From positions 499,001 through 563,000 of the forward strand of contig NZ_CP013630.1 of NCBI RefSeq assembly GCF_001664485.1: a stretch of 64,000 bases of DNA, given 5' to 3'. Both the position numbers and the translations under genes were made by a program. Below are positions 16,773 through 61,889 of this stretch, in pieces (the first letter of the stretch is position 1; each line of letters begins with the position of its first letter). The stretch is from Rhizobium sp. N324 (GTDB taxonomy: Bacteria; Pseudomonadota; Alphaproteobacteria; Rhizobiales; Rhizobiaceae). The notes under the pieces were generated by a model that did not search any database, was not told where the DNA came from, and worked only from the letters and a program-made list of their open reading frames with translations.

Positions 16773-16913
16773 GCCCCTCACCCTAACCCTCTCCCCGTTC
16801 TGACGGGGCGAGGGGACGTGCCCTGCTTGACGTCGGCGAGGGACGGAGAGAGTGCGGCTTGCCCCCCTTCGCCCCGCGCGCGGGGAGAAGGTGCCGGCAG
16901 GCGGATGAGGGGC
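16773..16913 (+). repeat. Dispersed palindromic element, copy A1
   Basis: The 141-bp element starts GCCCCTCACCCTAACCCTCT and ends GGCAGGCGGATGAGGGGC, with two internal hairpins (CTCCCCG..CGGGGCGAGGGG and CGCCCCGCG..CGGGGAG). Further copies lie at 22411, 24417, 28977, 59867 and 60418. It resembles RIME-class rhizobial mosaic elements. Confidence 0.85.
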
Positions 16914-22410: not shown

Positions 22411-22549
22411 GCCCCTCATCCGCCTGCCGGCACCTTCTCCCCGCGCGCGGGGCGAAGGGGATCTGCGGTAACCTCTCGGTCCCCATCAACGCCTCGCAGG
22501 GCACGTCCCCTCTCCCCGTTTTGACGGGGAGAGGGTTAGGGTGAGGGGC
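22411..22549 (-). repeat. Dispersed palindromic element, copy A2 (inverted)
   Basis: It reads GCCCCTCATCCGCCTGCCGG at the left end and GGGTTAGGGTGAGGGGC at the right, which is the reverse orientation of copy A1. It lies between the convergent frk and otsA 3' ends. Confidence 0.85.
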
Positions 22550-24416: not shown

Positions 24417-24546
24417 CGGCTGCCGCCACCTTCTCCCCGTAAACGGGGCGAAGGGACAATGCCGCAACCTCTCCGTTCCCCACTCACCTCTCGCATGGCA
24501 CGTCCCCTCTCCCCGTCAGAACGGGGAGAGGGTTAGGGTGAGGGGC
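24417..24546 (-). repeat. Dispersed palindromic element, copy A3 (inverted)
   Basis: It starts GCCCCTCATCCGGC and ends GGGTTAGGGTGAGGGGC, and is 130 bp long. It ends 13 bp before the pgi stop codon, so it lies directly at the 3' end of the pgi transcript. Confidence 0.85.
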
Positions 24547-28517: not shown

Positions 28518-28910
28518 ATGCTGAATCAGGATACCGACGCCACCAGCCGCGACCCGAATGCCAAGGGCACACATTCGCTGATCGCCAGCGACCGCGTCGA
28601 AGGCACCCGGGTTTATGGCGCCGATGGCAGGCATATCGGCTCGATCGAGCGCCTGATCATCGGCAAGCTCGACGGCCGCGTCGCCTATGCCGTGCTGAGC
28701 TTCGGCGGCTTCCTGGGCATCGGTCACGACCACTATCCGCTGCCGTGGGAAAAGCTGAACTACGACACACAGCTCGACGGCTATCGCATCGACCTGACCA
28801 AGGAACAGATCGAAGGCGCCCCGAGCTACGCGGACGATGACGACAGCTGGTACAACGATAATGGCCGCCGAGTTTATGACTATTACGGCGTGCCGCCCTA
28901 CTGGATGTAA
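28518..28910 (+). CDS. PRC-barrel domain protein
   Basis: The 130-aa protein starts at ATG 28518 preceded by AAAGGAG. A longer upstream frame was rejected. The PRC-barrel covers about residues 20-95: ASDRVEGTRVYGADGRHIG, IERLIIGKLDGRVAYAVLSF, GHDHYPLPWEKL. A Tyr/Asp-rich tail ends DYYGVPPYWM. Stand-alone PRC-barrel proteins are abundant in rhizobia, often stress-induced, and without known activity. It is monocistronic with a clear terminator. Confidence 0.85.
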   Translation: MLNQDTDATSRDPNAKGTHSLIASDRVEGTRVYGADGRHIGSIERLIIGKLDGRVAYAVLSFGGFLGIGHDHYPLPWEKLNYDTQLDGYRIDLTKEQIEGAPSYADDDDSWYNDNGRRVYDYYGVPPYWM

Positions 28911-28933
28911 CCTCGTCCGCTAGGCTGAGCTGG

Positions 28934-28961
28934 AAGGCCCCGTGCGGTGCGGGGCCTTTTT
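28934..28961 (+). terminator. Rho-independent terminator of the PRC-barrel gene
   Basis: The AGGCCCCG / CGGGGCCT stem with a 7-nt loop is followed by TTTT, 24 bp after the stop codon. Confidence 0.85.
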
Positions 28962-28976
28962 GGTGTGCTGTTGGTT

Positions 28977-29116
28977 GCCCCTCACCCTAACCCTCTCCCC
29001 GTAAAAACGGGGAGAGGGGACGTGCCCTGCGAGACGTTGGTAAGGAACGGAGAGGTCGCGGCACGCCCCCTTCGCCCCGCGTGCGGGGAGAAGGTGCCGG
29101 CAGGCGGATGAGGGGC
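28977..29116 (+). repeat. Dispersed palindromic element, copy A4
   Basis: The 140-bp copy has the same ends as A1 (GCCCCTCACCC... to ...GGATGAGGGGC). It abuts the 3' end of the beta-mannosidase gene. Confidence 0.85.
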
Positions 29117-29119
29117 TTT

Positions 29120-31573
29120 TCACCGCCCTGCAACCAGATCATTGGCCGACCGCAGCACGGTACCGACGACAATGTCATTGGCCGAAATCACCTTCGCCGT
29201 CGCCACCGCAAACACATGGCTCTCGCCCGGCAGCAGCGTCACCAGCATCGTATCGACCACCGCATCCGGATCCAGCCGATCCGCCATCAGGCAGAGATCC
29301 TTGAGGAAATTCTCAGCCGTCACCTTGACTGCAAACCCGCCATCGATCCCGGTGACATCGACCGCCAGCCGCGGCACCGATAAGGCAAGCTCGATATCCT
29401 CGAGGAAATAATGAAAAGCCCGCCGGTCGAGCATCTCGACGACGATGACCTCCTCCTTCGGTAAGCCGGGTCTAACAATATCCTCGGGCAGCGGAAATTC
29501 CTTGGCCTCGAAGCGGTCGCAGAGCAGGCGCCAAAATTCGAATTCGGCCAGCACCGTGCCGTCGAGCCTCAGGCGTTTGCCGGCGATCTTCGCCCGCCAG
29601 AACAATGTGCGTTCATTGACCGCCACTGCTGCCAGTCCGCCGTCGCGCGGCTGGATCGTCAGCAGGCGGGGATCATAGGCGGCCTTCAGCGCATACCAGA
29701 GCGGCTTGCGGCGCCCGGCCGAATCAAGCGCCGCCCACGAGGTCACCGGCCAGCAATCGTTGAACTGCCAGACCACCGCACCCTTGCAGATATCACGGTG
29801 CGAGCGCATGTGCTCGACGGCGAAGCGGATGGCGCGGGCCTGGTTGAGCTGGGTGGCGAAGTGCCAGTCGTCCATCGTCTTCGGCTCCGGCAGATGGCCG
29901 GCGAGACCGCGGATCAGCTTGTCATTACCCTGCGTCGCCTTCTGATGATGGAAGACGCCGTTCGATTGCGGCGTCAGCGGCGCGTCATGCACGCTTTCTT
30001 CGATCGTCGCCCAGGCGGCCGGCGCCTGCCAGCCGAATTCGGAGCAGAAGCGCGGGATATGGTCGCGGTAGACCTCGTAACCGACATCGTTCCACACGTC
30101 CCAGATATGTTTGCAGCCATGGGCGTCGGCATTGGCCTCGATCTCCATCGAACCGGAATAGGGGCTGCCCGGATAATAGGGCCGGTCGGGATCGAGCTCG
30201 GCACAGAGCCGCGGCAGCAGGTCGAGATAATAGCCGAGCCCCCACGTCTCGCCGGCCTTGATGATCGGCCGCCAGCCCCATTCGTCGAAGCCCCAGATGT
30301 TTTCGTTGTTGCCGTTCCAGAGAACCAGCGAGGCATGCGGCATCAGCCGCACGACGTTGTCGCGCACTTCGGCCTCGACCTCACTCTTCAGCGGCTCCTC
30401 CTCGGGATAGGCGGCGCAGGCAAAGAGGAAATCCTGCCAGACCAGCATGCCCATGCGGTCGCAGGCCTCGTAGAATTCGTCGCGCTCGAAGATACCGCCG
30501 CCCCAGACGCGCAGCATGTGGATATTGGCGGCCTTCGCCTCCTCGATCCGCGCGGCGTAGCGCTCGGCCGTCACCCGCGAGGGGAAACAATCGTCGGGAA
30601 TCCAGTTCGCGCCGGCGATGAACAGCGGCACGTCGTTGATGACGAAGGTGAAGGCCGAGCCATGCGCGTCAGCTGCGGTGTCGAGCCTCAGCGAACGGAA
30701 ACCGAGTTCCCGCTGATAGGTGTCGAGCGGATCGCCGCCGGCATCGTCGATCAGTTCGAGCGTCAGGGGATAGAGCGGCTGGGCGCCGAGATGATGCGGC
30801 CACCAGAGTTTTGGCGAGGGCAGGCGAAGCTCGAAGGCGGCTATGTCTTCTCCGGCGCCGATCGCAACCGTCGTCGTCACGCCGCCGAGCGTCGCGACCA
30901 GCCGGCACGGCTTCACCTCGCCATGACGCGCCACCTTCGCATGGATCTTCACCAGCCCGTCGCCACCGGCAAGCGTTGCCGAAACCCTTGTCTCGGCAAG
31001 CCGCGCCCGATCCCAGCTTTCCAGCCTGACCGGTTTCCACAGGCCCGCCGTCACCAGCGTCGGCCCCCAGTCCCAGCCGAAGTTGCAGGCCATCTTGCGC
31101 ATCAGATTGCCCGGTCCCGGATAATTGTTGGGCCGGTAGCCGTAGTGTTTTTCCATCTCCGCGCCATAGGCGTAGGCGGAGCGGAAGCTGACGGTGAGTT
31201 CGTTGGCGCCTGTTTTCAGAAGCCCGGAAACATCGAAACGATAGGTGCGATGCATGTTGAAGCTGCGGCCGACCTCTTCGCCGTTCAGCGCAATCACTGC
31301 GACCGTATCGAGCCCGTCGAAGACGAGTTCCTGCACCCTGCCATCATCAGGCACGGCCTCGAACGTGCAGCGATAGGTCCAGTCGGTCTTGCCGATCCAG
31401 TCGTTGGTGATCTCGTTGACGTCGATATAGGGATCGGGGATCAGCCGGCTGGCGAGAAGGTCGAGGTGCACGCAGCCCGGCACCGTCGCGGGGATCGTAT
31501 CAGGCAGGCCCGGTCTTCCTGTATCGTTGCAGTGAAGCGTCCAGCCGGAATTGAGCTCGGTCTTTTCGATCAT
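29120..31573 (-). CDS. Beta-mannosidase, glycoside hydrolase family 2
   Basis: The protein is 817 aa from ATG 31573 (AGGA 7-10 nt upstream). The frame can begin at TTG 31576. It has the N-terminal GH2 sugar-binding domain (WTYRCTFE.., VFDGLDTVAVIALNGEEVG), HYGYRPNNYPGPGNLMRKM and NFGWDWGPTL, which is characteristic of beta-mannosidases. The acid/base Glu is in LVLWNGNNENIWGFDEW and the probable nucleophile Glu in FCSEFGWQAPAAW. There is no signal peptide, so it acts on imported manno-oligosaccharides in the cytosol. It is the last gene after VOC and osmoprotectant transporter genes on the same strand, with only a 9-bp gap to the VOC gene. Confidence 0.92.
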   Translation of the reverse strand: MIEKTELNSGWTLHCNDTGRPGLPDTIPATVPGCVHLDLLASRLIPDPYIDVNEITNDWIGKTDWTYRCTFEAVPDDGRVQELVFDGLDTVAVIALNGEEVGRSFNMHRTYRFDVSGLLKTGANELTVSFRSAYAYGAEMEKHYGYRPNNYPGPGNLMRKMACNFGWDWGPTLVTAGLWKPVRLESWDRARLAETRVSATLAGGDGLVKIHAKVARHGEVKPCRLVATLGGVTTTVAIGAGEDIAAFELRLPSPKLWWPHHLGAQPLYPLTLELIDDAGGDPLDTYQRELGFRSLRLDTAADAHGSAFTFVINDVPLFIAGANWIPDDCFPSRVTAERYAARIEEAKAANIHMLRVWGGGIFERDEFYEACDRMGMLVWQDFLFACAAYPEEEPLKSEVEAEVRDNVVRLMPHASLVLWNGNNENIWGFDEWGWRPIIKAGETWGLGYYLDLLPRLCAELDPDRPYYPGSPYSGSMEIEANADAHGCKHIWDVWNDVGYEVYRDHIPRFCSEFGWQAPAAWATIEESVHDAPLTPQSNGVFHHQKATQGNDKLIRGLAGHLPEPKTMDDWHFATQLNQARAIRFAVEHMRSHRDICKGAVVWQFNDCWPVTSWAALDSAGRRKPLWYALKAAYDPRLLTIQPRDGGLAAVAVNERTLFWRAKIAGKRLRLDGTVLAEFEFWRLLCDRFEAKEFPLPEDIVRPGLPKEEVIVVEMLDRRAFHYFLEDIELALSVPRLAVDVTGIDGGFAVKVTAENFLKDLCLMADRLDPDAVVDTMLVTLLPGESHVFAVATAKVISANDIVVGTVLRSANDLVAGR

Positions 31574-47107: not shown

Positions 47108-48007
47108 GTGGCAAGGCAGAATACGGTCTTCAAGGAAGCCTACAACAGGTATGCCGTCGCCCTGCGCACGGATACGGCACTGCCCTCGGAACCGGAGATC
47201 GCCGCCCAGCTCGGCGTCAGCCGCTCGACGGCCCGCGCCATCCTCACCCGTCTCAGCGAAGAAGGCATCATCCGCTGGAACAAGCGCCAGAAGATCGTGT
47301 TGCGCCAGCCGACGGACCACGACCTCTTTCCCTCCGAAGAAACCGACTCCCTGCACGATATCATCGAGCGCAGCTTCATGCAGCGCATCCTCGCCGACGA
47401 TGCGGCGCCCGGCATGCAGATCAACGAGCTGGAGCTTGCCCGCGAAATCGGCACCGGCACAACGAGCGTGCGCGAATTCCTGATCCGCTTCTCCCGCTTC
47501 GGCCTGATCGAGAAACGGCCGAACAGCCACTGGACGCTGAAGGGCTTCACCCGCGAATTCGCCCTCGAACTGGCCGATGTGCGCGAGATGTTCGAGCTGC
47601 ATTCCGCCGCCGAATTCGGCCGGCTTGCCAGGGATAGCCAGGCCTGGACCGACCTCGCCGCCATCCGCGACGAACATCACGCCATGCTTGCCGACATCAA
47701 CCAGCGCTTCAAGGATTTCTCCGTCCTCGACGAGCGCTTCCATCTGCTGATCCACCGCGCCTCGAAGAACCGCTTCATCGCCGATTTCTACGACGCCATC
47801 GCCATCGTCTTCCACTATCACTACCAGTGGAACAAGACCGCCGCCCGCGAACGCAACGAGCGCGCCATCCACGAACATCTGGATTATATCGCCGCGCTTG
47901 AATCCGGCGACCAGGCCGCCATCGAGAAAGCCTGCCGCATCCACCTGCGCTCCGCCCGCCAGACCCTGCTGCAATCCCTGCCGCAGCTGGCGACGGAGAG
48001 CGGTTGA
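47108..48007 (+). CDS. GntR-family regulator with two winged helices and an FCD domain
   Basis: The protein is 299 aa from GTG 47108. A TTG at 47036 is another possible start, and the choice is uncertain. Two winged-helix units are visible. Residues about 8-65 are ALPSEPEIAAQLGVSRSTAR, with LSEEGIIRW. Residues about 83-150 are MQINELELAREIGTGTTSVR, with FSRFGLIEKR. A C-terminal FCD ligand domain follows, with DERFHLLIH and a HEHLDYIAAL His. Usual FadR-type proteins have one winged helix. It is divergent from the deoxy-sugar operon and probably represses it. Confidence 0.82.
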   Translation: MARQNTVFKEAYNRYAVALRTDTALPSEPEIAAQLGVSRSTARAILTRLSEEGIIRWNKRQKIVLRQPTDHDLFPSEETDSLHDIIERSFMQRILADDAAPGMQINELELAREIGTGTTSVREFLIRFSRFGLIEKRPNSHWTLKGFTREFALELADVREMFELHSAAEFGRLARDSQAWTDLAAIRDEHHAMLADINQRFKDFSVLDERFHLLIHRASKNRFIADFYDAIAIVFHYHYQWNKTAARERNERAIHEHLDYIAALESGDQAAIEKACRIHLRSARQTLLQSLPQLATESG

Positions 48008-48032
48008 GCGTAAGCCAAAATCGACAAAGGGC

Positions 48033-48240
48033 GTGCCGTGCAGCCCCCTCATCCGACCCTTCGGGCCACCTTCTCCCCGAGGGGAGAAGAGGGGAGAATG
48101 CCGCTTCGCCAACGATTCCATTGGATGGGGTGTCTTTGGACAGGCGGGTTCGTTTGGGCAGTGCCGGCGCATCTTGCTCCCTCTTCTCCCCAGCGGGGAG
48201 AAGGTGGCCCGCAGGGTCGGATGAGGGGGCTGCACGGCAC
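48033..48240. repeat. 208-bp palindromic element with ~47-bp inverted ends
   Basis: The ends are GTGCCGTGCAGCCCCCTCAT on the left and its complement ATGAGGGGGCTGCACGGCAC on the right. They match over about 47 bp with one mismatch (CCCTTCGGG versus CCCTGCGGG). Inner segments AGGGGAGAAGAGGGG also pair. It is a relative of the A-type elements, but of a different subtype. Most of the 48008-48301 gap is this element. Confidence 0.85.
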
Positions 48241-48301
48241 AACGCCAAACATCGCCTTCCACACACGCATCATGAAACCTTCTGATCCATAAGCCGTTAT
48301 C

Positions 48302-50344
48302 GTGCTTATGAGCGGCGCAAAACTTAAACCGAAATCGGTCGACGACACCGAACCGAAGGGTTCCGAGACGGCGGCCGAGGAGAAGCCATCGACTGCCGAG
48401 GCCGTGCCGCTGCCAGATGTCCCACCGCCAGAAGTCCCCCCGCCGGATGTAATTGAACCCGGTCCGGAACTGACGCCCGAGGAGGCCGAGCAGGCGCGCA
48501 AAAAGTATCTGCTCAAGCGGTTCTGGATCAGCGCGCGCCATTACTGGGGCCGCGGCGGCGACAAGTTCGCCTGGCCGTGCACGCTCGGGCTGTTGGCTCT
48601 GATCGGCATCAATGTCGGCTTCCAATATGGAATCAATCTGTGGAACCGCGGGATCTTCGACGCCATCGAGCGACACGATGCCGGCACCGTCTATTTCCTG
48701 AGCGCCGTCTTCGTGCCGCTGGTGCTCGGCACCGTCGCGGTCGTCACCACGCAGGTCGCGCTTCGCATGATGATCCAGCGCCGCTGGCGGTCCTGGCTGA
48801 CAACTGCGGTCATCCGGCGCTGGCTGGCAAACGGCCGTTACTATCAGTTGAACCTGATCGGCGGCGACCACAAGAACCCCGAGGCGCGCATTTCCGAAGA
48901 TTTGCGGATTGCCACCGAAGCCCCCGTCGATTTCATCGCCGGCGTCATTTCCGCATTCCTGGCGGCTTCGACCTTCATCGTCGTGCTGTGGACGATCGGC
49001 GGGGCATTGACGCTGCCGATCGCCGGTTTCACCGTCACCATTCCCGGCTTTCTCGTCGTCACCGCTGTCCTCTATGCCGCGATCACCTCCAGTTCGATGG
49101 CGGTGATCGGCCGCCATTTCGTCCAGGTCTCCGAGACCAAAAACCAGACGGAGGCCGAATTTCGCTACACGCTGACGCATGTGCGGGAAAACGGCGAGAG
49201 CATCGCATTGCTCGGCGGTGAAGAGGAGGAACGCAACGACCTCGACAAAACCTTCACCAATGTGCTCGGGCAATGGGCGCTGCTTGCCCGCCAGCACATG
49301 CGCACGACGCTGGTGTCGCATGGATCGATGCTGATTGCCCCGGTCGTGCCGGTCTTGCTATGCGCGCCGAAGTTTCTCGAAGGCAGCATGACGCTCGGAC
49401 AGGTCATGCAGGCAGCGTCAGCTTTCGCAATCGTCCAGGGCGCGTTCGGATGGCTGGTCGACAACTATCCCCGTCTTGCCGATTGGAACGCCTGTGCCCG
49501 GCGCGTCGCTTCGCTGATGATGTCGCTCGACGGGTTGGAGCGGGCCGAACAGAGCGACGCGCTCGGGCGCATCAAACGCGGCGAAACGGAAGGCGAAGCG
49601 ATGCTCAGCCTCAACGATCTCTCCGTGTCGCTTGACGACGGCACCGCCGTGGTCACGGAAACCCAGGTGGCGATCGAACCCGGCGAACGGGTGCTGGTCG
49701 CCGGAGAATCCGGGTCGGGCAAGAGCACGCTGGTGCGGGCCATATCAGGTCTTTGGCCGTGGGGCGACGGCAGCGTAAATTTTCACGCCGACCGCCGCTT
49801 GTTCATGTTGCCGCAACGGCCCTACATCCCGTCGGGCACGCTGCGCCGGGCGGTCGCCTATCCCGGCGCCGCCGATAGCTGGACGCTTGATAAGATCAAG
49901 GATGCCCTCAAAAAGGTCGGACTGGACTATCTGAACGACAGGATCGAAGAAGACGCGCCCTGGGACCAGACCTTGTCCGGCGGCGAAAAGCAGCGGCTCG
50001 CCTTTGCGCGCCTCCTGCTGCACACGCCCGATATCATCGTGCTCGATGAAGCAACCTCGGCCCTCGATGAAAAGAGCCAGGATAAGATGATGCAGATGGT
50101 GATCGAGGAATTGCCGGAGGTGACCATCGTCAGCGTCGCGCATCGCGCCGAGCTCGAAGTCTTCCATAGCCGCAAAATCACCCTGGAGCGGCGCGAGGGC
50201 GGCGCAAAGCTGGTCAGCGATATCGATCTGATCAAGCGCACGAGAAAACGGAACTTGCTGTCACGGGTTTTGGAGAATCGTCGCGCGCCGCCGAAGGCCA
50301 GCACGGCCTCTAATAAGGCGACGCAGCCGCGAAATAGACACTGA
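48302..50344 (+). CDS. SbmA/YddA-like ABC transporter, fused membrane and ATPase domains
   Basis: The protein is 680 aa from GTG 48302 (ATG 48308 is also possible; neither has a strong ribosome site). A Pro/Glu-rich N-terminal tail of about 60 residues precedes an ABC_membrane_2 domain with about six helices. The region GVISAFLAASTFIVVLWTIG and ERISEDLRIATEAP-like motifs (ISEDLRIATEAPVDF) are typical of YddA/SbmA. The ATPase has Walker A VAGESGSGKSTL, signature LSGGEKQRLAFARL, and Walker B IIVLDEATSALDE. Relatives export or import vitamin-, peptide- or lipid-like compounds. Substrate unknown. Confidence 0.9.
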   Translation: MLMSGAKLKPKSVDDTEPKGSETAAEEKPSTAEAVPLPDVPPPEVPPPDVIEPGPELTPEEAEQARKKYLLKRFWISARHYWGRGGDKFAWPCTLGLLALIGINVGFQYGINLWNRGIFDAIERHDAGTVYFLSAVFVPLVLGTVAVVTTQVALRMMIQRRWRSWLTTAVIRRWLANGRYYQLNLIGGDHKNPEARISEDLRIATEAPVDFIAGVISAFLAASTFIVVLWTIGGALTLPIAGFTVTIPGFLVVTAVLYAAITSSSMAVIGRHFVQVSETKNQTEAEFRYTLTHVRENGESIALLGGEEEERNDLDKTFTNVLGQWALLARQHMRTTLVSHGSMLIAPVVPVLLCAPKFLEGSMTLGQVMQAASAFAIVQGAFGWLVDNYPRLADWNACARRVASLMMSLDGLERAEQSDALGRIKRGETEGEAMLSLNDLSVSLDDGTAVVTETQVAIEPGERVLVAGESGSGKSTLVRAISGLWPWGDGSVNFHADRRLFMLPQRPYIPSGTLRRAVAYPGAADSWTLDKIKDALKKVGLDYLNDRIEEDAPWDQTLSGGEKQRLAFARLLLHTPDIIVLDEATSALDEKSQDKMMQMVIEELPEVTIVSVAHRAELEVFHSRKITLERREGGAKLVSDIDLIKRTRKRNLLSRVLENRRAPPKASTASNKATQPRNRH

Positions 50345-58384: not shown

Positions 58385-58591
58385 ATGCTCCTCCTTAAGC
58401 TCGATCGGTTCTTTCCTGCAGGCGAACATATTTACCGTTGGAAATCAAATCTCTCGCATTCGCCGATCATTTTTCGTCGGTTTCGGCTGCGGCCTTTCGC
58501 ATCGAAGCGGCAGCCCGAAAATTTCTGTCATGAATTGCCGCTATCAGGCAGAGTTCAATATAAGAAACACGAATCGACGCCGCGAGGGCAC

Positions 58592-59848
58592 TTGCAAGAC
58601 GAAACTCCGTGGAGAAAAAGCCTGTTGGCGCGCATCCGGCGCGAGCGGCCGGTGCTGCTGGCGGCGATCCTCAGCGCGCTTGCCGCGATTGCCGCCGGCA
58701 TGAACAAATGGGTTGTGCTCGGCCTCCTGCTTGTCATGATCGTCACCGCGCTTTTCAATGAGGCGCCCGTCATCAAGGACGAACCGGCCGAGCCGGTGGA
58801 GATTGCGCCGGAGGTGCCGCCGAGCCGGCTGCCTGAGGTGTCCGCCACGCTCGCCGGCCTCGATATTCCGGTCATGGTGCTGTCGGACGACGCCTCGGTG
58901 CTCTTCCAGAACCGCGCTGCCGAAAAGGCCTTCGGCGAGGTGGCGCTCGGCGCCCATATTTCCGGCCGCATGCGTTCGCCCGGCGTGCTCGACATGGTGC
59001 GCGAAACCATCGCCACCAACGCGCCGAACCAGATCGAGCATGCCGAGCGGCTGCCGTCGGAGCGCGTCTATATCGTCCGCAGCGCGCCCGTCGAAGTTTC
59101 GGCCGAAGGCGGGCCGCATGAGCGCTATTTCATCCTCTCCTTCCGCGATATTTCAGAGGTGCGCCGGATCGACCGCATGCGGTCGGATTTCGTCGCCAAT
59201 GCCAGCCATGAGCTGCGCACGCCGCTTGCGTCGCTGCGCGGCTTCATCGAGACCATTCAGGGACCGGCGAAGAACGATCTGAAGGCGCAGGCGCGTTTTC
59301 TCGCCATCATGTTCGATCAGACGACGCGCATGAGCCGGCTGGTCGACGACCTGCTGTCGCTCTCGCGACTGGAGCTGAAATCGCATATCGCGCCGGATGA
59401 GAAGGTCGATCTGGTGCCGCTGCTCGGCCATGTCCGGGATTCGCTGGTGCCGCTCGCAAAAGATGTCGGCGTCGACATCGACCTGCATCTGCCCGACGGC
59501 AAGGTCGAGGTGCTGGGAGACCGTGACGAGCTTGTCCAGGTGTTCGAGAACCTGATGGAGAACGCCTGCAAATACGGCCAGGAGGGCAAGACCGTCGATG
59601 TCTGGCTGAAGAACGGCGCCGGTGAGCCCGTCGAGGTCAGCATCGTCGACAAGGGGCCGGGCATCCCTGCCGAGCATGTGCCGCGCCTGACGGAACGCTT
59701 CTATCGCGTCAGCATCGAGGACAGCCGCTCGAAAAAAGGCACCGGCCTCGGCCTCGCCATCGTCAAACACATCCTCACCCGCCACCGCGCCCGACTGATC
59801 GTCAAGTCCGAAGTCGGCAAGGGTACTGATTTTACAGTTCGGTTCTAA
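58592..59848 (+). CDS. phoR: Phosphate-regulon sensor histidine kinase
   Basis: From TTG 58592 (AGGG just upstream) the protein is 418 aa, the usual rhizobial PhoR length. The open frame extends upstream without a good start, so the start is uncertain. Two hydrophobic segments near residues 17-55 are followed by a PAS-like domain (MVLSDDASVLFQNRAAEKAF). HisKA carries the phospho-acceptor in FVANASHELRTPLASLRGFI. HATPase_c has NLMENACKYG, DKGPGIP and GTGLGLAIVKHIL. It should phosphorylate PhoB. pstS-pstC-pstA follow after a 1-kb gap that holds an unusual insertion. Confidence 0.92.
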   Translation: MQDETPWRKSLLARIRRERPVLLAAILSALAAIAAGMNKWVVLGLLLVMIVTALFNEAPVIKDEPAEPVEIAPEVPPSRLPEVSATLAGLDIPVMVLSDDASVLFQNRAAEKAFGEVALGAHISGRMRSPGVLDMVRETIATNAPNQIEHAERLPSERVYIVRSAPVEVSAEGGPHERYFILSFRDISEVRRIDRMRSDFVANASHELRTPLASLRGFIETIQGPAKNDLKAQARFLAIMFDQTTRMSRLVDDLLSLSRLELKSHIAPDEKVDLVPLLGHVRDSLVPLAKDVGVDIDLHLPDGKVEVLGDRDELVQVFENLMENACKYGQEGKTVDVWLKNGAGEPVEVSIVDKGPGIPAEHVPRLTERFYRVSIEDSRSKKGTGLGLAIVKHILTRHRARLIVKSEVGKGTDFTVRF

Positions 59849-59866
59849 TGACCGAATGGAGAGGCT

Positions 59867-59973
59867 GCCCCTCACCCTAACCCTCTCCCCGCAGGCGGGG
59901 AGAGGGGACCTGTCGCTCTCGTATGGCACGTCCCCTCTCCCCGTAAAACGGGGAGAGGGTTAGGGTGAGGGGC
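59867..59973. repeat. Dispersed palindromic element, copy A5 (symmetrical composite)
   Basis: The 107-bp unit is bounded by perfect 25-bp inverted ends starting GCCCCTCACCCTAACCCTCT and ending AGAGGGTTAGGGTGAGGGGC. Internally it has CCGCAGGCGGG and ACGTCCCC hairpins. It looks like the left half of an A-element facing itself. Its right half is the left boundary of the DUF559 cassette. Confidence 0.85.
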
Positions 59974-60467
59974 AAATCACACGGAACGACATCGATGAGA
60001 GGCCCCAAGCCGAAAACCACCGCCCGAGCGCGATCGTTGCGTCAGTCGGACAACGACGCGGAAGGCAAACTATGGAACGAGCTGCGCGATCGGCGGCTCA
60101 ACGGACATAAATTCGTCCGGCAATTGCCGATCGGCCCCTATTTTGCGGATTTCGCCTGCCGTGAAATGCGGCTGGTGATCGAAATCGACGGCAGCCAACA
60201 CGCAGGCAATCGACGCGACGCAATTCGGGATGTCTTCATGACCGGCAACGGCTGGTCGGTCGTTCGCTTCTGGAATGTGGACGTGCTGAGGGAGCTGTCG
60301 TCCGTGCTGGAGACGATCGTTGCGATCTGCGAGGGACGGCTGGTCGAACGTGTCGAGGCGACGGATTTGCGGTTCTTTCCGGCTGCGGGCGAATAGCGAT
60401 GGCGTGCCATGTGATTTGCCCCTCACCCTAACCCTCTCCCCGTTTTAACGGGGAGAGGGGACGTGCC
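59925..60467. mobile_element. DUF559 cassette bounded by ~60-bp near-perfect inverted repeats
   Basis: 59925-59984 and 60407-60467 are reverse complements except for one substitution (CCGTG versus CCATG) and one inserted A. The interior (423 bp) is filled by the DUF559 gene plus short flanks. The inverted repeats comprise half an A-type palindromic element and extend 7-11 bp past its edge (CAAATCACA / TGTGATTTG). This is a transposon-like layout without a recognised transposase. Confidence 0.6.
59995..60396 (+). CDS. DUF559 (Vsr/restriction-endonuclease-like fold) protein
   Basis: The protein is 133 aa from ATG 59995. A start at 59965 would lie inside the palindromic element. It shows the DUF559 pattern: RQSDNDAEGKLWNELRDRRL, GHKFVRQLPIGPYFADFACR, MRLVIEIDGSQH and NGWSVVRFWNVDVLRELSSV. 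The Asp of ADFAC and the Glu/Asp of IEIDG fit a PD-(D/E)xK nuclease site. DUF559 proteins are related to the very-short-patch-repair endonuclease family, but activities are unproven. It is wholly enclosed between inverted repeat copies, in the middle of the phoR-pstS region. Confidence 0.85.
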   Translation: MRGPKPKTTARARSLRQSDNDAEGKLWNELRDRRLNGHKFVRQLPIGPYFADFACREMRLVIEIDGSQHAGNRRDAIRDVFMTGNGWSVVRFWNVDVLRELSSVLETIVAICEGRLVERVEATDLRFFPAAGE

Positions 60468-60557
60468 CTACGCGATGTGTGCGAGGGACGGAGAGGGTGC
60501 GGCTATCCTCCTTCGCCCCGCAAGCGGGGAGAAGGTGCCGGCAGGCGGATGAGGGGC
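60418..60557 (+). repeat. Dispersed palindromic element, copy A6
   Basis: The 140-bp full-length copy has GCCCCTCACCC... to ...GGATGAGGGGC ends, as in A1. Its first 50 bp are the right inverted repeat of the DUF559 cassette. The bases after it (CAAACACACGGTACGA) resemble those after A5 (CAAATCACACGGAACGA). Confidence 0.85.
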
Positions 60558-60718
60558 AAACACACGGTACGATCTCAATGAAAGGATGCAAAGAGTTCCC
60601 ACTTTTGGTGTGCTTGGTGTATTTGCAATGCAAGGTAGATCGGCGGCCAAAAGTCAGATCCTTGATGACGCGCCGTTCGAAGTGCGTTTAAATTCATATT
60701 AAATATCAATAACATAAC

Positions 60719-60736: not shown

Positions 60737-60854
60737 CGATTTGACATAAAAGGACGGTGCTTACAGCGCTAAGAGAGTCCCGCCGATGAAAAAAGGCACT
60801 GCGAGGGCCTCTCGAAAGGCCGCACTCACACAAGCCCAATGCGGGAGATTTCTA

Positions 60855-61889
60855 ATGAACACCTTCAAGCTCACCGTTGCCGCGCTCGCTGCAACCGCCG
60901 CTTTCGCTGGCGCTGCCGTCGCCCGCGACCAGATTCAGGTTGCCGGTTCGTCCACCGTCCTGCCTTACGCAAAGATCGTTGCTGAGTCCTTCGGCGAAAC
61001 CTTCACCAACTTCAAGACGCCGGTCGTCGAATCCGGCGGCACGGGCGCTGGTCTGAAGGAATTCTGCAAGGGCGTCGGCGAAGACACGATTGACATTGCC
61101 AACGCTTCGCGTCCGATCAACAAGAACGAAGCCGAAGCCTGCAAGGCTGCCGGCGTGACCGACATTCAGGAAGTCAAGATCGGTTATGACGGCATCGTCT
61201 TCGCAACCGACTCTTCCAACCCGGATGTCGCCTACGTTCCCGCCGACATCTACAAGGCCCTCGCAGCCCAGGTCGTCGTCGACGGCAAGCTCGTCGCCAA
61301 CCCCTACAAGAAGTGGTCTGAAGTCAACCCGAAGCTTCCGGCTGTTGATATCGCCGCCTACATCCCGGGCGAAAAGCACGGTACCCGCGAAGTCTTCGAA
61401 CAGAATGTTCTCGCTGCCGGCTGCAAGGCTTCGGGCGCAACCGACGTCATCGCCAAGGAAATCTCCGACAAGGCCGCTCAGACGAAGGCCTGCGTCGCAG
61501 TCCGCAAGGACGGCGCTGCTGTCGACATCGACGGCGACTATCCGGAAACGCTCGCCCGCATCGCCGCCAACAAGACCGGCGTCGGCGTATTCGGCCTCTC
61601 CTTCTATGAAAACAACGCCGACAAGCTCAAGGTTGCCAGCATGAGCGGTATCGTTCCGTCGACGGAAACGATCGCCAACGGCACCTATCCGGTTTCCCGC
61701 CCGCTGTTCTTCTACGTCAAGAAGGCACATCTCGGCGCCGTTCCCGGCCTGAAGGAATACGTCAACTTCTTCGTATCCGACCAGATGATCGGCCCCGACA
61801 GCCCGCTCGTCGAATACGGCCTGGTTGCCGCTCCCGATGCCGAGCGCGACGCGATCCGCAAGGACGTCGAAGCCGGCAAGTCCATGTAA
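60855..61889 (+). CDS. pstS: Periplasmic phosphate-binding protein
   Basis: The protein is 344 aa from ATG 60855, with GGGAGA eight nt upstream. An upstream frame from 60786 was rejected. It has signal peptide MNTFKLTVAALAATAAFAGA with cleavage after AVA. The mature part begins RDQIQVAGSSTVLPYAKIVA, with the phosphate-contact segments GSSTVLP, SGGTGAGLKEF and ANASRPI. It fits the PstS/SphX-like high-affinity binding protein. It is the first gene of pstSCA and is preceded by a Pho box. Confidence 0.95.
   Translation: MNTFKLTVAALAATAAFAGAAVARDQIQVAGSSTVLPYAKIVAESFGETFTNFKTPVVESGGTGAGLKEFCKGVGEDTIDIANASRPINKNEAEACKAAGVTDIQEVKIGYDGIVFATDSSNPDVAYVPADIYKALAAQVVVDGKLVANPYKKWSEVNPKLPAVDIAAYIPGEKHGTREVFEQNVLAAGCKASGATDVIAKEISDKAAQTKACVAVRKDGAAVDIDGDYPETLARIAANKTGVGVFGLSFYENNADKLKVASMSGIVPSTETIANGTYPVSRPLFFYVKKAHLGAVPGLKEYVNFFVSDQMIGPDSPLVEYGLVAAPDAERDAIRKDVEAGKSM

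Follow-up and report, generated by a model that had tools for sequence, protein, structure and literature searches.

The stretch of DNA analysed here, a window of 64,000 nucleotides from Rhizobium sp. N324, carries between phoR and pstS a small gene of the DUF559 family that is bracketed by inverted repeats and flanked by palindromic elements. The association of DUF559 genes with such elements, and their partnership, is well supported by the comparisons with other genomes described below. The gene, the only one between the arms of the inverted repeat, runs on the plus strand from an ATG at 59995 to a TAG ending at 60396 and encodes 133 amino acids for which a PD-(D/E)XK or Vsr-like nuclease fold is expected (PF04480). 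The left arm of the repeat (59925–59984) matches the reverse complement of the right arm (60407–60467) at 59 positions, the only differences being one substitution and a 1-base indel. Scored as a local inverted repeat, the two flanks reach 126, while the best of 500 mononucleotide shuffles reached 30. These values confirm the near-perfect repeats of about 60 bp described in the initial annotation, and the match indeed continues past the element edge (GGGGCAAATCACA / TGTGATTTGCCCC). The arms are, however, not isolated halves of palindromic elements; each is the gene-facing part of a complete one. The left element (59866–59974) is of A type, symmetric and composed of two hairpins, with outer ends TGCCCCTCA...TGAGGGGCA and arms of 26 nucleotides each (59866–59891 and 59949–59974) that are 100% complementary. 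The right element (60417–60558) combines one A-type and one B-type hairpin (repeat families D2, I6 and I7). Directly behind it, a plus-strand stretch at 60559–60605 resembles by eye the DUF559 leader and first codons and is a possible relic; similar stretches lie behind elements in relatives. The neighbouring genes, both on the plus strand, encode a PhoR-like histidine kinase (58547–59848; HisKA, HATPase_c) and a PstS-like phosphate-binding protein (60786–61889; PBP_like_2, with the true start perhaps further in). Rfam offered only animal microRNA models for the left palindrome (59867–59973), all below their gathering scores, matches that we regard as artefacts of hairpin shape.

To ask how general the arrangement is, we collected from other genomes 60 regions, none longer than 20 kb, that contain a DUF559 gene; samples of the family, the class and the phylum supplied 20 apiece. 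The regions were hand-picked from match lists, high-scoring matches and long contigs first, rather than drawn at random. A C/G-rich hairpin motif, chosen after the loci had been read, occurs within 300 bp of 47/60 DUF559 genes against 35/685 control genes (p = 6e-40), with similar counts in the family (16/20 vs 10/245), class (15/20 vs 16/231) and phylum samples (16/20 vs 9/209). When any exact inverted repeat was counted, whatever its sequence, 29/60 DUF559 and 87/685 control genes had one no more than 300 bp away (p = 3e-10; family 15/20 vs 22/245, class 6/20 vs 28/231, phylum 8/20 vs 37/209); around DUF559 such repeats cover 17.5% of bases up to 150 bp from the gene, 8.9% at 150–300 bp and 0.9–1.8% beyond. 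The motif was then frozen and applied to 77 further loci from named genomes, the best 80 of more than 512 matches minus three duplicates, where it was found at 61/77 DUF559 and 12/163 control genes. Alpha-, beta-, gamma- and unspecified proteobacteria contributed 43/55 against 8/121, and the remaining groups 18/22 against 4/42, the 22 comprising seven Chloroflexota, eight delta/Desulfobacterota, two Rokubacteria, one each of Nitrospirota, Bipolaricaulota, Binatota and Marinimicrobia, and one unplaced locus; group labels were taken from record titles, and many of the records are metagenome bins, in which stray contigs may be present. Of the 16 loci missed by the frozen motif, at least 10 show an element by eye, and hairpins that differ from the motif in sequence show a weak enrichment (8/22 vs 9/42, p = 0.24, outside those proteobacteria; 25/55 vs 30/121, p = 0.008, within them). 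True Vsr genes carry no such hairpin element (0/29), in contrast to 70/79 DUF559 loci by the same count, which disregards strand, omits four loci of less than 3 kb (one Vsr, three DUF559) and uses DUF559 loci that share genomes with the 60-region set. The link that the initial annotation had proposed for other rhizobia, and would have given up had no enrichment been seen, is strong there and reaches other phyla. Within the open-access library searched it is unreported: we found no literature there that links DUF559 with palindromic repeats, subscription journals not being covered.

The elements share a common unit, a hairpin (roughly YYTCYCCC-loop-GGGRGARR) followed by a tail like GGTTAGGGTGAGGGG or GGATGAGGGG, and this unit is oriented with respect to the gene. 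Among the 77 loci, upstream tails point toward the gene only in 35 cases, away only in 1 and both ways in 7, with none in 34; the corresponding downstream numbers are 37, 2, 6 and 32. One-sided cases thus sum to 72 toward and 3 away. In the 60-locus set, 16 upstream tails point toward the gene only, 2 away only and 4 both ways (38 without a tail), and 15, 8 and 5 do so downstream (32 without). Inward tails on both sides of the gene occur at 33/77 and 13/60 loci, and a tail is found in 0.2–0.7% of background windows. The C-termini of 13/60 and 15/77 proteins resemble a translated element (e.g., HPNPLPQGER), by a loose pattern that lets in some false cases.

Each DUF559 clade also tends to keep its own element family. 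Of 64 family loci assembled for this comparison, likewise hand-picked from the match lists, 55 were typed by regular expressions; the other nine show an element by eye, and seven of these were labelled by hand, so that two remained without a label. Mapped onto a DUF559 tree that is built from few columns and leaves 30 of 61 inner branches open, element type changes 12 times, compared with at least 29 changes in 1000 shuffles. When shuffling was confined within the 13 multi-type genomes, at least 16 changes were needed and 0/1000 shuffles came to 12 or below; regular-expression labels alone (55 loci) gave 10 changes, with 0/1000 shuffles and, within 10 genomes, 1/1000 doing as well. One clade of 19 is entirely type C and one clade of 8 entirely type D. 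Type-C elements occupy at least three places in 18/18 genomes with a C-type gene (median 26), against a median of 2 in 23 typed genomes without a C-type gene seen, some of which have further untyped DUF559 genes (p = 5e-4), and are absent from 36 of 40 DUF559-negative genomes. Of 76 type-D places, 20 were counted by hand as being no more than 400 bp from a DUF559 gene; these fall in 11 of 21 genomes.

The same connection appears in the genome-wide element load. We counted the hairpin pattern CTCCCC-N2-6-GGGGAG in 101 genomes of the family sample, 61 with DUF559 and 40 without; G140, whose weak DUF559 match lies in a 1908-amino-acid frame, was entered as negative. The median was 6.0 hairpins per Mb with DUF559 and 0.0 without (p = 5e-11), and among genomes of at least 3 Mb 6.0 (n = 61) against 0.22 (n = 32; p = 9e-9), while the medians for a reversed control pattern were 0.24 and 0.08 (p = 0.03). 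In one of the DUF559-positive genomes no hairpin was counted at all.

The Rhizobium sp. N324 genome itself holds 153 hairpins of the C/G-rich class. Allowing as many as 3 mismatches, the A-type core CCCTCACCCTAACCCTCTCCCC occurs at 63 genomic places, and 54 of these are exact copies. The B core has 27 places, 14 of them exact; the control patterns, reversed in the case of the A core, gave 0 for each. Twelve of the 27 B-type places form six inverted pairs, 144–154 bp apart. Within the window, GGTTAGGGTGAGGG occurs 7 times (mean 0.00 in 100 shuffles), and scanning with it marks dispersed A-type elements at 16775–16788 (minus), 22534–22547 (plus), 24531–24544 (plus) and 28979–28992 (minus); a dispersed B-type inverted hairpin pair at 48070–48203 came from the hairpin scan, its cores lying at G000:C1:547050 and 547195. 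The genome encodes four full DUF559 genes and one fragment. By eye, 4/4 of the full genes adjoin a palindromic element, with three element sequences in all: the window gene has the A type, two further genes have the B type and the last has a CCCCTCCCCAACCCCTCCCC type. Two of these genes (L002 and L004, at G000:C1:3594508 and 3597904) lie 3.4 kb apart and have different element types, and five other genera carry DUF559 genes in different slots of what seems to be the same neighbourhood. Elements are at times nested: a second palindrome, like GGGTCCGAAGGACGGGTCGAGACCCGTGGCTCGACCC, sits within A-type elements of the relatives G045 and G085 (in the counterpart of window 28850–29160) and in two phoR–pstS gaps (L044, L050). 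The stretch around the B pair (window 47950–48330) measures about 1.5–2.0 kb in G045 and G085 compared with 0.38 kb here, and in G045 the extra DNA starts inside the B-type element.

The history of the gene between phoR and pstS was followed in the best 30 phoR loci of 99 genomes with a match. DUF559 is present in 5 (this genome, G017, G026, G039 and G077) and absent from 22, and 3 loci (L049, L051 and L059) end before pstS. The nearest relative, G023, lacks the gene here and has one A-type element. Since apparent relics stand beside elements in some gene-less loci, the pattern suggests old presence and repeated loss; by eye, 3' remnants are seen in L058 and 5' remnants in L044, L050, L054 and L056, of which blastn backs the one in L056 only (26 nucleotides, E = 2e-4). 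Among the five carriers, G077 has a broken frame and G026 lacks three residues beside the active-site strand. The ratio of nonsynonymous to synonymous substitution rates is 0.06–0.17 among the four copies other than the broken one, and the protein is under purifying selection. Elsewhere the gene may have changed place. In Sinorhizobium, an element–DUF559–element cassette stands between two genes that adjoin in Shinella, a comparison made on unannotated sequence with one empty record from another genus. On S. meliloti pSymB, the inverted arms on either side of a DUF559 gene agree at 110/114 positions, so that terminal inverted repeats around a single gene, a trait of insertion sequences, are present both there and in the window. 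In the 20 regions of the family sample, two neighbourhoods recur around DUF559 genes of different genera, but the distance of the gene from a given neighbour varies. The small mobile cassette imagined in the initial annotation is supported in part, by the occupied and empty sites of Sinorhizobium and Shinella and by the pSymB arms, but not as a simple recent mover between phoR and pstS, where the gene is absent from 22/30 loci and apparent relics remain.

A counterpart exists in Escherichia coli K-12, where ycjD (b1289) is annotated as DUF559 and is followed by CCCCTCGCCCCTCTGGGGAGAGGGTTAGGGTGAGGGG. Like the elements described above, the one downstream of this DUF559 gene contains the string GGGGAGAGGGTTAGGGTGAGGGG; unlike them, it is a single hairpin plus tail, and the palindrome upstream of ycjD has another sequence. 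The 46-base K-12 element was matched in 5357/5426 genomes, at 1–26 places (median 14). In 60 records spread over a ranking of 5375, element places elsewhere in the genome number a median of 16 (10–25) in the 37 with ycjD against 3 (1–15) in the 23 without (p = 2e-9), records that are not independent because ycjD follows lineage (PMC12817139). Between E. coli sapF and fabI, ycjD alternates with the eefRABCD efflux operon from strain to strain (PMC12817139), so the locus provides no clean occupied and empty site and was set aside for that purpose; element copy number differs between the two kinds of strain as well. A blastn search of an Erwinia DUF559 gene against E. coli found nothing. YcjD has been placed in the PD-(D/E)XK superfamily (PMC1189080).

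The window protein matches PF04480 with E = 2.5e-35 and 121.1 bits (curated cut-off 20.6), and a 29-row alignment that includes it has invariant E, RQ, DF, E-x-DG and R positions, conserved residues that, judged from the alignment, look like those of an active site. A Pfam scan at E = 0.001 returned DUF559 and MTES_1575 only, and the Vsr model (PF03852) gave no match, even though fold and active-site layout of the two families appear alike, so that DUF559 may still work in a Vsr-like way. PADLOC and NCBIfam were discarded as sources of an identity: some sections of large defence proteins were matched weakly, and PRK09767 (the YcjD family) scored below its cut-off. Weak DUF559 matches also occur in very long open frames (about 1,500–2,100 amino acids) that resemble large proteins such as the anti-phage ProA of NCBIfam.

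Several known systems invite comparison. REP and REPIN sequences, the partners of RAYT (TnpA-REP), are short intergenic palindromes in many copies, often arranged as inverted pairs. Each family has a single nuclease gene, which lies between repeats of that family; the RAYT gene is inherited mostly vertically, and repeat families track gene clades. RAYTs are Y1 HUH transposases, and the REP hairpin is marked by a RAYT-type tetranucleotide. The elements described here are likewise short and numerous, with some inverted pairs (63 A-type and 27 B-type places, including six B pairs), and the repeats that flank a DUF559 gene belong to the family that goes with its clade; the nuclease, however, has a PD-(D/E)XK or Vsr fold and not that of Y1 HUH enzymes, and the hairpin tails are G-rich (GGGTGAGGG type). 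Because this genome has no match to a Y1 partner (PF01797, E = 0.001), we do not file the system under REP and RAYT. The parallel drawn in the initial annotation nevertheless stands, in that a repeat-flanked nuclease gene, clade–family pairing and multicopy palindromes are all observed. RIME in rhizobia and Box C in E. coli are intergenic palindromic repeats of the same hosts, likened here by description only. A fold relative of DUF559, the homing endonuclease I-Bth0305I (3r3p), is in its known form borne by an intron, whereas DUF559 here is a free-standing gene beside, not inside, the repeats.

On this basis we think it probable that the small proteins consisting of DUF559 alone act as dedicated nucleases paired with a REP-like superfamily of palindromes, each made of a C/G-rich hairpin and a GGGTGAGGG- or GGATGAGGGG-like tail. 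By analogy, DUF559 is best read as what may be an unrelated-fold counterpart of RAYT. Binding, cutting and copying or mobilisation of the elements by DUF559 are what we infer from this arrangement, RAYT-like action by an unrelated nuclease being presumably the most economical mechanism. Each DUF559 clade would have its own element family, with one or two members beside the gene, tails mostly inward, and more copies scattered over the genome. The nuclease would recognise its cognate hairpin and tail, most probably in single-stranded or cruciform form, and nick the element, whereupon host repair might copy the nicked element elsewhere or homogenise existing copies. Gene and flanking elements may now and then be relocated as a unit, with inheritance otherwise mostly vertical and loss frequent. 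More tentatively, and with somewhat less than even confidence, DUF559 could represent a second, independently evolved class of repeat-mobilising system, in which a nuclease of Vsr/homing fold copies its own hairpin-plus-tail elements and no transposase takes part; with the same reserve, this class might extend over Pseudomonadota, Chloroflexota, Desulfobacterota, Rokubacteria and others and include YcjD of E. coli K-12.

Other explanations account for parts of these data. DUF559 could be a homing-type selfish gene whose product cuts a site in or beside a gene-less element and which is copied in by recombination between flanking elements, the dispersed elements being target sites and footprints and not passengers. 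We consider both parts of this proposal unlikely, as the gene-side elements are often complete and not split, family genomes hold 1–6 DUF559 matches against tens of elements, and the loss between phoR and pstS looks vertical, neither of which resembles an efficient homing gene. Comparably improbable is a role in repair, with DUF559 acting like Vsr on mismatches or on particular DNA structures and the palindromes being accidental nick targets or its own regulatory sites; there is little likelihood, too, that the genome-wide link merely reflects tolerance of palindromes in cells able to process them. Vsr genes themselves are without such elements, and a separate element family for each DUF559 clade within one genome is not predicted by a general repair role. 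That DUF559 genes and elements are both intergenic, and that hairpins also lie beside about 5–8% of control genes, would fit a passive link in which the hairpins are terminators or DUF559 lands in hot intergenic sites that gather elements as well, yet the enrichment drops to background within 300–500 bp, is found on both sides of the gene in fixed orientation, and involves element types that follow protein clade even within a genome, so that we give this explanation a slim chance. Least probable is that these are ordinary REPs moved by a RAYT, with DUF559 as a bystander: the elements are REP-like in shape and Y1 transposases (PF01797) occur in 13 of the 101 family-sample genomes, but five of these 13 (G100, G118, G163, G164 and G183) hold 0 hairpins, and the present genome reaches its 153 without any Y1 match.

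A number of observations weigh against the dedicated partnership that we favour. In the class and phylum samples, the enrichment measured without the motif is modest. Ten of the 32 DUF559-negative genomes of at least 3 Mb hold at least 1 hairpin per Mb, and G138, G110, G145, G151 and G135 contain 19–76 hairpins of the class with no DUF559 match; similarly, 10 of the 23 ycjD-negative E. coli records retain 8–15 element copies. Three of nine genomes with a D-type gene (G116, G159 and G178) are without a type-D place under a strict pattern, and G113 has 16 type-D places while the single DUF559 match found in it is C-type, elements that may have outlived their gene or may be acted on in trans. Linkage between a gene and its neighbouring DNA can be the source of part of the clade–type pairing. 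Target-site duplications at element ends, raised in the initial annotation, were looked for and not found, either in five collinear relatives at five element sites, where presence and absence were seen and junctions were messy, or at the Sinorhizobium/Shinella site, whose flanks are too diverged for a duplication to be called. Finally, Caulobacter VsrA (CCNA_02930), a DUF559 protein and hence of the same Pfam family as the window protein, is described in excerpts of a recent study as SOS-induced, forming foci and tied to a cytosine methyltransferase, and is proposed there to act in mismatch repair; these excerpts make no mention of palindromic repeats (PMC12907096).

The partnership proposed here would suggest a function for proteins that still bear the name 'unknown function' and have lately been assigned to mismatch repair. 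For palindromic repeats in RAYT-free genomes there was no prior candidate for what spreads or keeps them, and a small and specific nuclease partner, which E. coli K-12 also carries as ycjD, would make the question accessible to direct experiment. If the reading is true, gene-plus-repeat partnerships of the REP kind would have arisen at least twice, from unrelated nucleases.
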